NCBI GenBank assembly: GCA_947259095.1
Contig: CAMYLA010000015.1
Location: 1 to 64,000 of the forward strand
Reading direction: 5' to 3'
From: an uncultured Acidimicrobiaceae bacterium
GTDB taxonomy: Bacteria > Actinomycetota > Acidimicrobiia > Acidimicrobiales > SZUA-35
DNA: 64,000 nt
The notes under the pieces: generated by a model
Database searches by the model: none
Told to the model about the DNA's origin: nothing
What the model saw: only the letters and a program-made list of their open reading frames with translations
Program-made: the position numbers and the translations under genes
Shown: piece by piece, positions 30,533 through 36,738 of the stretch
Layout: each line of letters begins with the position of its first letter
Numbering within the stretch: the first letter of the stretch is position 1

Positions 30533-33500
30533 ATGAATCCTGGCGCAACGAAGTGGGAACGTCGGCCGTACCTGGCCGCAATGATACGCATCGCCATCCA
30601 TGCCGCACCGATCGCGGCCTCGATCGCCGCGGTCATCGGCGTCGGCAGGATCATTCGTCGTCCGGACTCGTTGGCCGCGACCGCCATCTGGTGGATCGGC
30701 CTGACCGCAGTGGCCACCCTGGTGTTGTGGTTGGCCGACCGGGCCGTCCGCCGCCTGCTGCCGGTTGCCGCACTGTTCAAGCTGTCCCTGGTCTTCCCCG
30801 ATCGGGCACCGTCGCGCTTCAAGACCGCGATCCGGGCCGGCACCGTCCGCCAACTCCAACGTCAGGTCGAGGCAGGCACCTTCAGTGCGACAACACCCCA
30901 GGACGCTGCGGAACAGCTCATCGGACTGGCCGCCACCCTCAACAGCCACGACCGCCTCACCAGAGGCCACACCGAACGGGTCCGGGCCTACGCCACGATG
31001 ATCGGCGAGGAGATGGGCCTGGAGGGCAGCGACCTCGAGCTGCTCAACTGGTCGGGGCTGGTTCACGACATCGGCAAGCTGGCCGTGCCACCGGAGATCC
31101 TCAACAAGCCGGGCAAACCCACAGACGAGGAATGGGTGATCCTGCGGAACCATCCGGCGATGGCCGACGAACTGGTCGAGCCGCTCCGGGCCTGGCTCGG
31201 GCAGTGGGCCGAGTCGGCGACCCAGCACCACGAGCGCTTCGACGGCAAGGGATATCCGCTTGGCCTGGCAGGCGATCAGATCACCCTCGCCGGGCGAATC
31301 GTGGCCGTTGCCGACGCCTACGACGTGATGACCTCGACCCGCTCGTACAAGAAACCAATGTCGACGGTGGTTGCCCGTTCCGAGCTGGCGGACAATGCCG
31401 GCACCCAGTTCGACCCGACGGTGGTTCGGGCCTTTCTGAACATCGCCATCGGCCGGCTCCGGCTGGTGATGGGCCCGCTGTCATCGCTGGTGCAGATCCC
31501 GGCCGGTGGTGCGTCGCTCGGTTCCTCGGTGGCGACCGGGGCCGGCGCGGTTGGTGCGGTGGCGGTGGCGGCGTTGGCCGGCGCATTCCCGGCACCGGTC
31601 GAGCCGCAACCGGAACCCGAGGCCGTACCCTTCACCGCCCCCGAAGCGGAACCGGAACCGGTCCCGGCCCCCGTGTACGAGGTCGGAGACGTCGATCTGG
31701 AGACCGGCGAGGACCAGACACTCACCGTCGACCTCGGCGCCATGGTGGAGGCACCGATGGTGAGCATCGACTTGTTCGGCCGACCCCATGCCGGCACGGC
31801 CACGCTGTCGGCCGAGGGGGTGGTGACCTTCGAACCACCGCCGGACTTCCACGGCACGGTCTCGGTGCCGTACCGGGTCTGTTTCGTCGACGGCTCCTGC
31901 GATGAGGGTCTGATCACGATCACCGTTGGCAGCAGCAACGACCCACCCCGGACCGGCGACGACCAGGTGACCCTCCGGGAAGACACCGAGGCCACGGTCG
32001 AGGTGTTGCTCAACGACTACGACGTCGACGAGGGTGATCGGCTCACCGTGACCGCCGTAGCCGTTGTCGGCATTCCATCCGGGGCCGGTGCCAGCGACCG
32101 ACCGCCACGTATGGCGACGGTGATCGAGGACAACAAGATCGTGTTGTCCCCGGGGCCGAACTGGTGGGGGCAGGCCGTCGTCGAGTACACCATCGCCGAT
32201 CCGACCGGGCTGACGGCCACCGGTGTGATCGACGCCGAGGTGCTATCGGTCAACGACCTGCCGGTTGCGGTCGACGACCAGGTGACCGGCTACGAGAACA
32301 CTCCGATCGTCATCGACGTCCTGGCCAACGACAGCGACGAAGACGGCGAGGCCCTCTCGATCGTCTCGGTGGCCGCTGCCACCGGCGGTGTGGCCACCAC
32401 CGACGGCAAGACCGTGACCTTCGTACCCCACCCCCGATACTTCGGGCCGGCCGGCTTCAGTTATGCGATCACCGACGGCAAGGTCTCCGCCTCGGCCACG
32501 GTGACCATCGATGTGGTCGACATCACCTCCCAGCCGCTGCTGAGTCCCGATCTGGCGACCGGGTTCGAGGACCAGACCGTCCTCATCGATCCGCTGGCCA
32601 ATGATGTGGGGGTGAACGCCATCCTCAATCGAGACAGCATGACCATCATCCGGCCTCCGGCCAACGGTGCTGCAACCTGGACCGGGGCCGAGGTGGCGTA
32701 CCAGCCGGACCAGGACTGGTCGGGCAGCGACAGCTTCGACTACCTCGTGTGCAACGCGCTGGAGTTCTGCAATGTGACCACGGTCGGGGTGACGGTCCGG
32801 CCGGTCAACGACCGGCCGATCCTGACGCTGGCCCCGGGTGGCACCATCCTGGAAGACGCCGGGCCACAGACCGTCGATGACATGGCAACGGCGACGGCGG
32901 GTGCGATCGACGAGGCCGCCCATACCATCACCTACACCGTGACCAACGACAACCCAACCCTGTTCACAACCCAACCGGCCATCAACCCCGCCGGCCAACT
33001 CGGCTACACCACCGGCCCCGACCGCAACGGCACCGCCACCATCACCATCACCGCCACCGACAACGGCGGCACCACAAACGGCGGCACCGACACCACCTCG
33101 GCCACCGCCACCATCACCGTCAACCCGGTCAACGACGTACCGATCCTGACCGTCGGGGCCGACCAAACCGTGACCGAGGACGCCGGACCCCAAACCCAAC
33201 CAACCTGGGCCACCACCGACCCCGGACCCACCGACGAAGCCGCCCAAACCGTCGGCTACACCGTCACAAACGACAACCCGGCCCTGTTCACAGGCCAACC
33301 CAGCCTCACCTCCGACGGCCAACTGGCCTACACCGCCGGACCCGACCGCAATGGCACAGCCACCGTCACCATCACCGCCACCGACAACGGCGGCACCACC
33401 AACGGCGGCACCGACACCACCCCGGCAACCACCGCCACCATCACCATCACCCCCGTCAACGACGATCCGGTCGGCGTCGACGATGCACAGTCGGTTGACG

Positions 33501-35176
33501 AGGACGACCTGGCCGGCATCACCTTCGACGTCCTGGGCAACGACACCGACGTCGATGGTGACACGCCGCTGTACGGCACCGCAGTGCTGACCACCTTGGT
33601 CGGCGGCACCGTCACCGACAACGCTGACGGCACGTTCGACTACGTACCGGACGAACACTTCAACGGCGTCGACACGTTCGACTACGTGGTGATCGACGGC
33701 AACGGCGGCTCGGACACCGCGACGGTGACCATCACCGTCAACCCGCTGCCAGACCCGCCGTCCGCCGGCGACGACGCCCGGGTCACGCTGGTCGACACCC
33801 CCCTGTCGGTACCGGCGCCGGGGCTGCTGGCCAATGACTACGACGTCGACGACGAAGCCCTGACCGTGAGTACCACACCGATCAGCCCGCCGACCAACGG
33901 CTCGGTGACCCTCAACGCCGACGGTTCCTACCTCTACACGCCGAACGCTTCCTATGCCGGCACCGACAGCTTCACCTACGAAGTGTCCGATCCCGGTGGC
34001 AGCACCGCCACCGCCACCGTGACCATCACCGTCGACACCGGTGTTGTGAATCAGACCTTCTTCCTCGGCGACTCTGGGTCGGCCAGCTGGAACTACGATC
34101 TGGTCACCTCGGCGCCCCCGTCGACCACACCGCCCTTCGACAGCGACGGCGACACCGCCCCTGGTCTGACGATCGACAACAGCAACGGCTCGGAGTCCGA
34201 GCTCGACCCGACCAAGTTCCAGATCTGGAGTCACACCGCAATCGGGCCACTCCAGCTCGACGGTCCGGTGGTGCTCGACCTGTGGGCCACGGTCAAGGAC
34301 TACGACAACGACGACAAAACCCACCCCTACGTCTACCTCTACGACTGCCTGGGACTGTCATGCACCAAGCTGGCCGAGGCTGATCTCCACCTCGACCCGT
34401 GGGACGCCGGCGTCTCGGACTTCGTGAACAAGCCGGTCGATCTCGGTTCGGTCAGCCACACCGTGGCCACCGGCCGCGATCTGGTCCTCAGGCTGCAGTT
34501 CAGGCACCAGGACGCCTGGGTCGGCCTGACCGCCGACTACCCAAGCGCCCTCCAGCTCACCCTGGGCAACCAGGCTCCGGTGGCCACCGACGACAGCACA
34601 ACCATCGACGAGGATGCGGCAACCACCAACCTGGCGGTGCTGGCAAACGACACCGACGCCGACATCGACCCCGCCTCGGTCACCATCACCGCCGCGGCGT
34701 CGCTGGGCACTGCGATCCCAGTCGGCGACGGGACCATCGACTACAGCCCGACCGCCGACACCAGCGGCGTCGACAGTTTCGACTACCAGGTCTGTGATCT
34801 GGGCGGCAACTGCGCCACCGCAACGGTGACGGTCACCATCGATGCGGTCAACGACCAACCGGTCTTCACCGGTGGCGGCAACGTGGTCAGCACCGGCCCC
34901 GGTCCCAACTCGTTTGCCGGCTGGGCCACCGCCATCGACGCCGGAGCGGCCGACGAAGCCGGGCAGACGCTCACCTTCACCGTGACCGGCAACGACAATC
35001 CCGGTCAGTTCAGCGCCGGCCCGACCATCGACTCGACCACCGGCGAGCTGACGTTCACCGCACTGGCCGGGCCCGGCACCGCCAACATCACCATCGAGCT
35101 CGGCGACGACGGCGGCACCGGCAACGGCGGGGTCGACACGTCCACCGTGTACGGCTTCACCGTCACGTTCCCCTAG
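30533..35176 (+). CDS. membrane HD-GYP domain protein fused to a large cadherin/Ig-like repeat ectodomain
   Basis: The protein has 1547 residues. Two hydrophobic helices (about 18-38 and 50-70) are followed by a cytoplasmic HD-GYP domain (about 130-310). That domain keeps SHDRLTRGHTERV (His139), HDIGK (His178/Asp179), QHHERFDGKGYP (His232/His233, GYP at 240-242) and VADAYDVMTS, so cyclic-di-GMP phosphodiesterase activity is plausible. A third helix (about 329-352) and a Pro/Glu-rich linker lead to about 1190 residues of tandem cadherin/Ig-like ('tandem-95') repeats with VNDxP and VLANDxDxD motifs that may bind Ca2+. Two neighbouring units are nearly identical. A jelly-roll-like segment (about 1172-1350) interrupts the series. 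No sorting signal is seen at the C-terminus. Signalling across the membrane from adhesin to HD-GYP, or the reverse, is inference. Confidence 0.88.
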   Translation: MNPGATKWERRPYLAAMIRIAIHAAPIAASIAAVIGVGRIIRRPDSLAATAIWWIGLTAVATLVLWLADRAVRRLLPVAALFKLSLVFPDRAPSRFKTAIRAGTVRQLQRQVEAGTFSATTPQDAAEQLIGLAATLNSHDRLTRGHTERVRAYATMIGEEMGLEGSDLELLNWSGLVHDIGKLAVPPEILNKPGKPTDEEWVILRNHPAMADELVEPLRAWLGQWAESATQHHERFDGKGYPLGLAGDQITLAGRIVAVADAYDVMTSTRSYKKPMSTVVARSELADNAGTQFDPTVVRAFLNIAIGRLRLVMGPLSSLVQIPAGGASLGSSVATGAGAVGAVAVAALAGAFPAPVEPQPEPEAVPFTAPEAEPEPVPAPVYEVGDVDLETGEDQTLTVDLGAMVEAPMVSIDLFGRPHAGTATLSAEGVVTFEPPPDFHGTVSVPYRVCFVDGSCDEGLITITVGSSNDPPRTGDDQVTLREDTEATVEVLLNDYDVDEGDRLTVTAVAVVGIPSGAGASDRPPRMATVIEDNKIVLSPGPNWWGQAVVEYTIADPTGLTATGVIDAEVLSVNDLPVAVDDQVTGYENTPIVIDVLANDSDEDGEALSIVSVAAATGGVATTDGKTVTFVPHPRYFGPAGFSYAITDGKVSASATVTIDVVDITSQPLLSPDLATGFEDQTVLIDPLANDVGVNAILNRDSMTIIRPPANGAATWTGAEVAYQPDQDWSGSDSFDYLVCNALEFCNVTTVGVTVRPVNDRPILTLAPGGTILEDAGPQTVDDMATATAGAIDEAAHTITYTVTNDNPTLFTTQPAINPAGQLGYTTGPDRNGTATITITATDNGGTTNGGTDTTSATATITVNPVNDVPILTVGADQTVTEDAGPQTQPTWATTDPGPTDEAAQTVGYTVTNDNPALFTGQPSLTSDGQLAYTAGPDRNGTATVTITATDNGGTTNGGTDTTPATTATITITPVNDDPVGVDDAQSVDEDDLAGITFDVLGNDTDVDGDTPLYGTAVLTTLVGGTVTDNADGTFDYVPDEHFNGVDTFDYVVIDGNGGSDTATVTITVNPLPDPPSAGDDARVTLVDTPLSVPAPGLLANDYDVDDEALTVSTTPISPPTNGSVTLNADGSYLYTPNASYAGTDSFTYEVSDPGGSTATATVTITVDTGVVNQTFFLGDSGSASWNYDLVTSAPPSTTPPFDSDGDTAPGLTIDNSNGSESELDPTKFQIWSHTAIGPLQLDGPVVLDLWATVKDYDNDDKTHPYVYLYDCLGLSCTKLAEADLHLDPWDAGVSDFVNKPVDLGSVSHTVATGRDLVLRLQFRHQDAWVGLTADYPSALQLTLGNQAPVATDDSTTIDEDAATTNLAVLANDTDADIDPASVTITAAASLGTAIPVGDGTIDYSPTADTSGVDSFDYQVCDLGGNCATATVTVTIDAVNDQPVFTGGGNVVSTGPGPNSFAGWATAIDAGAADEAGQTLTFTVTGNDNPGQFSAGPTIDSTTGELTFTALAGPGTANITIELGDDGGTGNGGVDTSTVYGFTVTFP
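32813..33463 (+). repeat. near-identical 324/327-bp coding tandem repeat
   Basis: Two consecutive repeat units, 32813-33136 and 33137-33463, encode about 108 and 109 residues. They share long identical DNA stretches in their second halves, for example the segment encoding TITATDNGGTTNGGTDTT. Base use here is unusually C- and A-rich on the plus strand compared with flanking units of the same gene, which suggests recent duplication or conversion. Confidence 0.85.
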
Positions 35177-35432
35177 GGTCCAACGCCGATCACCCCGACC
35201 GGGTTGTGGGAGCGGATTGTCGGCCGGGTTTCTGAGGCGGGTTCTCGAGTGAGCGGGTTTGGACCGGCCGCAGATCGGGTACACGCATTCTCACATGGGT
35301 ACGTATTGACCTGCTGGGCATTGCCCCGGCGAACCCCCGGGTGTAAACAGGCGGGCAACTCCGGTCGCCTTGCGTGACGACTGGCCCCGTGACCCCACGG
35401 GCCTGGAGCGGAGAGGGAACGGAACCACGGTC
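35177..35432. other. intergenic region before the heliorhodopsin gene
   Basis: No gene is seen in these 256 bp. An imperfect hairpin is present around 35383-35404 (GGCC-C-CGTG, loop ACCC, CACG-GGCC), close to the heliorhodopsin leader. TTGACC at 35307-35312 is a possible -35 box but no convincing -10 follows it. The hairpin could act as an attenuator of the upstream message or as a leader element; nothing in the sequence decides. Confidence 0.35.
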
Positions 35433-36245
35433 ATGACAGCTCCAACCGTAGATTTTCAACGGGAAACGGTCACGATCCCCGATGCCAGGCTGGGGAGACT
35501 ACGCATCTTCAACCTCGTCATGGGTCTGGTCCATCTCGTGTCCGGGCTGTTGATGGTGGTGCTCGGCAACGACTTCAAGTTGGAGGTCAGTACTTTCAAC
35601 CTCAACGGCCCGCCCGGCACGCCGCTGGCCGAGGGTGTGATCAACGGTGTGCTCGACGTGCCGCTGGCTTGGGCCACGGCTTCGTTCCTGTTCCTCTCCG
35701 CCCTGTTCCACTTCATCATCGCCTCACCGTTCGGCTTCAACGGCTACAAGTCGGAGCTTCGCCGGGGCCGCAACCGATTCCGGTGGGTGGAGTACTCGAT
35801 CTCATCGACGCTGATGATCCTGTTGATCGCACTCGTCACAAACATCACAGACCTGGCGGCCCTGGTCGGCCTGGCCTTCGCCAACGTGGCCATGATCCTG
35901 TTCGGCTGGATCATGGAGATGGTCAATCAGCAGGACCGCAAAACCTGGTGGACACCTTTCTGGTTCGGCTGCATCGCCGGCATCGGCCCCTGGCTGGCCA
36001 TCGCCACCTACATCGCAGTGAACGTCAACCAGACCGACGGCGAAGGGCCCCCGGGATTCGTCTACGGGATCATCTTCAGCCTCTTCTTCTTCTTCAACAC
36101 CTTCGCCATCAACCAGTGGCTGCAGTACCGGCGGGTCGGCAAATGGTCCGACTACGTCTACGGCGAGACCGTTTACATCGTGTTGAGCCTGGTGGCAAAG
36201 AGTGTGCTGGCCTGGCAGATCTTCGCCAACACCCTGATCGAATGA
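35433..36245 (+). CDS. heliorhodopsin
   Basis: This 270-residue protein has seven hydrophobic helices and the diagnostic heliorhodopsin motifs. The retinal-binding Lys256 is in LSLVAKSVLAWQIFAN (helix 7) and the counter-ion Glu120 is in RWVEYSISSTLM (helix 3). SPFGFNGYKSELRRGRNRFRW precedes helix 3. The Glu-Lys distance agrees closely with the prototype 48C12 (Glu107/Lys241). Heliorhodopsins have an inverted topology (N-terminus inside) and slow photocycles and are thought to be light sensors or regulators, not pumps. Start ATG 35433 is preferred; the frame opens at 35370. No retinal-biosynthesis gene is visible in the window, so retinal must come from elsewhere. An SRPBCC gene follows 61 nt downstream. 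Confidence 0.95.
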   Translation: MTAPTVDFQRETVTIPDARLGRLRIFNLVMGLVHLVSGLLMVVLGNDFKLEVSTFNLNGPPGTPLAEGVINGVLDVPLAWATASFLFLSALFHFIIASPFGFNGYKSELRRGRNRFRWVEYSISSTLMILLIALVTNITDLAALVGLAFANVAMILFGWIMEMVNQQDRKTWWTPFWFGCIAGIGPWLAIATYIAVNVNQTDGEGPPGFVYGIIFSLFFFFNTFAINQWLQYRRVGKWSDYVYGETVYIVLSLVAKSVLAWQIFANTLIE

Positions 36246-36306: not shown

Positions 36307-36738
36307 ATGGCCTACTACAGCACAACCGTCGAAACCCCATGGGACGCCGATCGGGCGTTCGACTACATGGCCGACCTTCGAAACTTTGAGCGCTGGGATC
36401 CCGGCATCCAGTCGTCGGATCTGGTGGAGGGCAGCGACCCCGGCGTCGGGTCGGCCTACGACCTCAAGGTCAGCGGTACCAACCTTCGCTACGAGACCCT
36501 GGAGTTCGACCGGCCACGCCGAACCGTGGTCGAGGCCAACTCCAGCCTGCTCCGAAGCTACGACGTGATCGAGGTCACGCCATCGGGTTCCGGTGCCACG
36601 GTCAGCTACGAGGCGACCCTGGAGCTGAAGGGCATCCTCCAGTTCGCCGACCCGATCCTCGGGCTCGTCTTCAATCGGATCGGTGACAAGGCTGCCGCCG
36701 GCATGGCCAAAGCGTTGGAGTCGGCCAAGGTTCGATGA
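36307..36738 (+). CDS. SRPBCC (START-like/polyketide cyclase) family protein
   Basis: This 143-residue protein has the helix-grip layout of SRPBCC proteins. An N-terminal strand (YYSTTVETPWDADRAFDYMADL) is followed by NFERWDP, a central antiparallel sheet and a long C-terminal helix (IGDKAAAGMAKALESAK). Such proteins hold hydrophobic ligands in a cavity. It has a clear GAGGAG site before ATG 36307. It lies 61 nt after heliorhodopsin on the same strand, so cotranscription is likely. A role in binding or delivering retinal or a carotenoid is a hypothesis only. Convergent with the MFS gene. Confidence 0.88.
   Translation: MAYYSTTVETPWDADRAFDYMADLRNFERWDPGIQSSDLVEGSDPGVGSAYDLKVSGTNLRYETLEFDRPRRTVVEANSSLLRSYDVIEVTPSGSGATVSYEATLELKGILQFADPILGLVFNRIGDKAAAGMAKALESAKVR

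Follow-up and report, generated by a model that had tools for sequence, protein, structure and literature searches.

The locus described here raises three questions: is the gene that it carries a genuine heliorhodopsin (HeR), from where would the protein obtain its retinal, and what would it do in the cell? The gene lies in a stretch of 64,000 nucleotides (called the window throughout) from an uncultured bacterium of the order Acidimicrobiales. The genome that holds the window, G000, is referred to as the source assembly and consists of 6.39 Mb in 229 contigs. We regard it as practically certain that the gene encodes a genuine heliorhodopsin. The explanation that best fits the evidence as a whole, an HeR that acts as a light sensor and draws on scavenged retinal, is in our judgement quite probable. 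The features discussed are collected in Table 1.

Identity and family placement

The open reading frame extends on the + strand from an ATG at 35433 to a stop codon ending at 36245 and encodes 270 amino acids. With an alternative in-frame start, the TTG at 35370, the protein would be 21 residues longer; the shorter ATG form would suffice, because the profile match begins at its residue 23. A preliminary description of this DNA had called the gene a heliorhodopsin and proposed a profile search, and the result of that search agrees with it. The Pfam Heliorhodopsin profile PF18761 is matched over positions 1-242 of 242 with an E-value of 9.5e-98 (cut-off 26.7 bits), and the NCBIfam model NF038020 over positions 1-244 of 244 (cut-off 100 bits); the scores are given in Table 1. 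Six distinct solved HeR sequences in the Protein Data Bank (PDB) also match, among them the crystal entry of 48C12. Judged from these sequence comparisons, the agreement goes far beyond chance. Identity as a type-1 (bacteriorhodopsin-like) rhodopsin was considered and rejected, the score against PF01036 being 19.1 bits, under the gathering score of 24.6.

Table 1. Positions of the features discussed (window coordinates unless a contig is given)
Feature	Position	Strand	Evidence or remark
HeR gene, 270 amino acids	35433..36245, stop codon included	+	PF18761, 326.8 bits; NF038020, 309.5 bits; PDB 48C12, E 1.5e-73
Glu120 codon, counterpart of 48C12 Glu107	35790..35792	+	alignment; E in 62/62 HeRs
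Lys256 codon, counterpart of 48C12 Lys241; SxxxK motif with Ser252	36198..36200	+	alignment; 62/62 HeRs
SRPBCC / Polyketide_cyc2 family gene (context only)	36307..36738	+	PF10604, 62.2 bits
1547-residue HD-GYP-type (HD_5) protein with cadherin-like/Big_9 repeats, upstream of HeR (context only)	30533..35176	+	PF13487, 120.5 bits; PF17963, 377.4 bits
Second HeR of the source assembly	G000:C23:43863-44594 (L066:7744-8601)		54% identical to the window HeR
Type-1 rhodopsin, xanthorhodopsin-like, DTE spacing	G000:C25:47541-48185 (L130:9449-10249)	-	near PNPase and DapB genes
Type-1 rhodopsin, NDQ spacing	G000:C14:47643-48323 (L131:9563-10381)	-	

The prototype 48C12 (PDB 6su3, 6uh3) is a homologue over nearly the full length, with 51.6% identity over 244 aligned residues. 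A tree that includes it had also been proposed. In our maximum-likelihood tree of 62 HeRs the window HeR falls among the heliorhodopsins, in a 22-row clade (support 100/98), whereas 48C12 stands apart from this clade and clusters with two other actinobacterial HeRs (98/98). Sixteen rows of the clade come from records with Acidimicrobiales in their titles; the other 6 belong to the source genome or to relatives of it within the order. The closest named matches of the window HeR are 73-81% identical to it, which is the range for HeRs from metagenome-assembled genomes (MAGs) of uncultured Acidimicrobiales (loci L034-L041 and L054). Among 148 genomes drawn from the order, 41 carry an HeR; within the family the figure is 26 of 39, two of these 26 (G155 and G176) being counted through short partial matches only. 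The window HeR is a typical member of a group with many representatives, an ordinary actinobacterial heliorhodopsin that adds to the known family.

Conserved residues, topology and selection

The preliminary description had pointed to Lys256 and Glu120, and to the spacing between them, as family hallmarks. Both the residues and the spacing are borne out, since they align with Lys241 and Glu107 of 48C12 and are the same in 62 of 62 HeRs. We take Lys256 to be the lysine that forms the Schiff base with retinal, and Glu120 to be its counter-ion. Three further residues, His34, His93 and Ser252, correspond to His23, His80 and Ser237 of 48C12, which are presumably functional residues as well, so that Lys, Glu, His and Ser positions are common to the two proteins; all these correspondences were obtained by counting along the alignment from the PDB search. 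Ser252 and Lys256, again invariant in all 62 HeRs and aligned with S237 and K241 of 48C12, form the motif S252-L-V-A-K256, in agreement with the SxxxK motif used in PMC8612252 for the Schiff-base lysine in helix 7 of HeRs. Of 16 positions inspected, 14 (Lys256 and Glu120 among them) are invariant in the 62 distinct rows, and positions 37 and 89 vary; several of the 16 had been chosen for being invariant in an earlier alignment of 20 sequences. The count of 62 excludes three identical rows and the partial HeR L064, and covers those HeRs of the order search whose locus was fetched.

Lysines and arginines of the window HeR are found 15 times on predicted inner segments and once on outer ones (segment bounds set by hand), as expected of a protein with its N-terminus inside, which is the inverted topology of the HeR family. 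When compared with four relatives by NG86, the gene shows a nonsynonymous divergence (dN) of 0.15-0.20 and a synonymous divergence (dS) of 0.93-2.07, the latter near saturation. The window HeR gene is under purifying selection. These data bear on the idea that the gene is a relic whose product no longer binds retinal. Such an idea could draw on the fact that no from-scratch source of retinal was found in the source assembly (see below), but 62 of 62 HeRs retain Lys256 and Glu120 together with the remaining invariant residues, dN/dS is low and two thirds of the family genomes (26/39) carry an HeR. We consider a relic extremely improbable.

Retinal and carotenoid synthesis genes

According to the preliminary description, no genes for retinal or carotenoid synthesis occur near the HeR gene. 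For phytoene synthase and Blh this statement holds and can be extended to the whole assembly; crtE, crtI and the heterodimeric lycopene cyclases were outside the search. The phytoene synthase profile PF00494 has no match in the source assembly, and is positive in 63 of the 148 order genomes and in 7 of 14 control genomes. Only one of the 39 family genomes, G149, has a phytoene synthase match, and it bears an HeR itself; the other 25 of the 26 HeR-bearing family genomes are without one (family genomes are 55-98% complete). Within the order phytoene synthase shows no association with HeR, being found in 14 of 41 genomes with HeR and 49 of 107 without (p 0.27). The Blh/BCD profile PF15461 likewise gives no match in the source assembly. 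It is positive in 3 of the 148 order genomes, and in two of these (G058 and G082) the match adjoins a type-1 rhodopsin. Six matches to the lycopene cyclase profile PF05834 were obtained in the source assembly, none above 31.8 bits and those listed falling within the first 144 of 380 profile positions; this search is uninformative, as scores cover just 12 of 64 candidates and the profile was positive in 10 of the 14 control genomes.

The source organism seems unable to make carotenoids. Because neither phytoene synthase nor Blh is matched in the assembly, retinal is probably not made from scratch, and there is a good chance that the retinal of the window HeR is scavenged, either ready-made or cut from imported carotenoids. 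The cell would import retinal, or it would import carotenoids or apocarotenoids and cleave them with oxygenases of the RPE65 family encoded in other parts of the genome. Alternatively, the organism might make its own retinal by a carotenoid route that is unknown or escaped detection. A precedent is Aurantimicrobium minutum, which is without known retinal genes yet contains retinal (PMC7734400); the same source, however, credits A. minutum with genes for C50 carotenoids, and the phytoene synthase family is without a match both in the source assembly and in 38 of the 39 family genomes. We regard such a route as unlikely.

RPE65-type oxygenases

Candidates for the cleavage step were sought with the RPE65-type oxygenase profile PF03055, which has five matches in the source assembly: three of full length (on C41, C81 and C29), one partial (on contig C5) and one short fragment. 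The three full-length oxygenases have carotenoid dioxygenases as their closest PDB entries. Six His columns are invariant among them, and four of these residues (H156, H206, H270 and H447 in the first oxygenase sequence) are presumably the iron ligands. Two of the three proteins lean to the NCBIfam model for apocarotenoid 13,14-cleaving dioxygenases, with 514.0 and 422.8 bits. PF03055 is matched in four of the five family genomes included in the draw from the order.

The short fragment (G000:C15:141058-141231) represents the C-terminal part of an RPE65-type protein in a frame of 67 residues; it is located on the window's contig, outside the window, and is probably a broken gene. In another genome, G044, about 3 kb separate an HeR gene from a gene for a full-length RPE65-type oxygenase on the opposite strand (G044:C5:86016-91101, L110). 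The HeR and oxygenase matches of G122, a second genome of the same genus, are on different contigs.

Function of the window heliorhodopsin

By homology, the window HeR would be a seven-helix protein, N-terminus inside, in which Lys256 binds all-trans retinal and Glu120 serves as the counter-ion. HeRs commonly absorb near 550 nm, and a slow photocycle is a trait of the family. Light would isomerise the retinal and bring about a change at the cytoplasmic face. To judge from other HeRs, the altered protein would then regulate another protein and would not pump ions. A role as sensor or regulator is, by this analogy, fairly likely. Bulzu et al. (PMC8612252) argue that HeRs are sensors linked to signalling genes, and two HeRs are reported to act through the binding of a partner: AbHeR with glutamine synthetase (PMC9529153) and OcHeR with an ABC transporter (PMC11109279). 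The window differs from these two systems in its neighbours. Ten classes of frequent HeR neighbours, including glutamine synthetase, photolyase and ABC transporter, are given in PMC11109279, and none of them is found among the five window neighbours scanned (HD-GYP/cadherin, SRPBCC, MFS, acyl-CoA dehydrogenase and AMP-binding).

A different function, the transport of ions (protons), has been reported for an HeR of a giant virus, and the window HeR could in principle do the same in place of sensing. It belongs, however, to the 22-row clade of its own order and retains the inspected residues of 48C12-type HeRs. In addition, according to Bulzu et al. (PMC8612252) ion pumping had not been shown for HeRs, although that paper is older than the viral case. 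We therefore think that transport is very unlikely, and a light-sensing HeR supplied with scavenged retinal remains the explanation that we prefer.

Several observations weigh against this preference. When the open frames of 54 HeR loci were compared all against all, none of the neighbour families turned up in more than 7 loci, a difference also from the otherwise similar HeRs of the Acidimicrobiales MAGs, and for this reason no partner is named for the window HeR; since there is no partner gene, the regulatory step is argued from analogy. At least three of the 54 loci duplicate others in the set, and the grouping, which caught HeR itself in just 50 loci, is liable to miss genes (an initial gene caller, which overlooked HeR in 20 of the 54 loci, was discarded). 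With respect to cleavage, the third oxygenase fits the apocarotenoid 13,14-cleaving and lignostilbene dioxygenase models alike (219.2 and 220.9 bits), and all three oxygenases score under the NCBIfam equivalog cut-offs (at best 514.0 of 675). Oxygenases do co-occur with HeR in the order (29 of 41 genomes with HeR vs 40 of 107 without, Fisher p 4e-4), and the association persists in a model that includes genome size, completeness and phytoene synthase (p 0.0012). The link is nevertheless lost in a within-family comparison, for which five families are informative (p 0.61), and when each family is represented by a single genome (9/15 vs 18/46, p 0.23), and it is not claimed here because it disappears once relatedness is controlled. 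As for the missing synthesis genes, the source assembly is 96.46% complete and 7.1% contaminated, and PF15461 was positive in 0 of 14 controls, so that its negative result leans on the three positive order genomes. Finally, PMC7734400 describes an endogenous, unknown route to retinal in one rhodopsin-bearing actinobacterium, which has carotenoid genes.

Neighbouring genes

The SRPBCC gene starts 61 bases after the HeR stop codon and is followed by an MFS gene on the opposite strand. No promoter-like site was found. A single terminator-like site was found, on the - strand, which is no more than expected by chance, and none lies on the + strand between HeR and SRPBCC. The shared strand, the 61-base spacing and the absence of such a site between the genes would be compatible with an operon in which HeR regulates, by light, the lipid- or ligand-binding protein encoded downstream. 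However, among 66 loci the SRPBCC gene, like the HD-GYP gene, was found only in two copies of the window's own locus (about half of the 66 loci have flanks of only ~1.5 kb), and the gap is wider than the <10 bases between genes that Bulzu et al. (PMC8612252) use as their operon criterion. We consider this arrangement quite unlikely. Generic families do recur near HeR: AMP-binding genes accompany it in 6 loci and acyl-CoA dehydrogenase genes in 3, with no fixed distance or strand.

The protein encoded upstream joins an HD-GYP-type domain to a long cadherin-like/Big_9 array within 1547 residues, a pairing that is unusual to us when compared with HeR loci. ARAGORN predicts two tRNAs within this frame, Pro at 31414-31512 (+) and Arg at 33174-33266 (-), and both are probably false positives.

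Other rhodopsins of the source assembly

The source assembly encodes three further rhodopsins (Table 1). The second HeR, on contig C23, falls in a different well-supported clade, and its nearest row is from a genome of another family (G052, 83.6% identity). The two type-1 rhodopsins, on C25 and C14, show D-T-E and N-D-Q motifs, read by eye from the translations; we take these spacings to be those of outward proton pumps and of sodium pumps, respectively. In the PDB the C25 protein (searched without its last 17 residues) is closest to psXR, then to Gll0198 and xanthorhodopsins, and the C14 protein is closest to 8qle (deposited as "bacteriorhodopsin-like protein"), followed by chloride and sodium pumps. 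Type-1 rhodopsins score above the cut-off in 14 of the 148 order genomes, and among the five family genomes drawn in the source assembly only.

In tetranucleotide composition C23, C25 and most of C14 correlate with the window at 0.984-0.994, whereas the C14 stretch that holds the rhodopsin deviates slightly, at 0.957. For reference, the values are 0.981-0.992 for the quarters of the window itself and 0.70-0.94 for ten stretches taken from nine other genomes; the test discriminates poorly, as a 9-kb piece (L127) of the contig that carries the window scores only 0.936. The contig C25 very likely belongs to the source genome, since the four best foreign matches of the PNPase gene beside its rhodopsin are the four other family genomes drawn (76-81%). 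For C14 ownership was judged by composition only. For a protein of 568 residues on C23 the best foreign matches come from other families (72-84%: G040, G106, G070, G059, G063, G100, G132 and G004); those in the family are only weak. Since both this protein and the HeR beside it have foreign affinities by sequence, C23 is possibly a transferred segment or a stray contig.

Comparison with other actinobacteria and implications

A comparable case is provided by the Luna-1 aquatic actinobacteria. According to PMC12422013, most of these have two or three rhodopsin genes, many combining HeR with actinorhodopsin, a likeness to the source assembly with its HeR and type-1 rhodopsins. Few of them have blh, and they are thought to need retinal from outside. 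They differ in that carotenoid genes are widespread among them, whereas the source assembly is without a phytoene synthase match. The proposal that HeR-bearing actinobacteria depend on outside retinal is thus already in print (PMC12422013). A limited literature search found no Acidimicrobiales family described as having HeR and lacking phytoene synthase, which is weak evidence of absence.

We tentatively suggest, as a possibility that we hold to be somewhat doubtful, that the family kept its HeRs (along with two ion-pump-type rhodopsins in this genome) after losing carotenoid synthesis, or without ever having had it, and that retinal is obtained from scavenged carotenoids by means of its own RPE65-family oxygenases. 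The three candidate cleavage enzymes of the source assembly bear on the question of the retinal source. With HeR in 26 and phytoene synthase in 1 of its 39 genomes, the family offers a compact test case in which that source is directly testable. If the suggestion is true, light sensing in this family would rely on pigments from other organisms.
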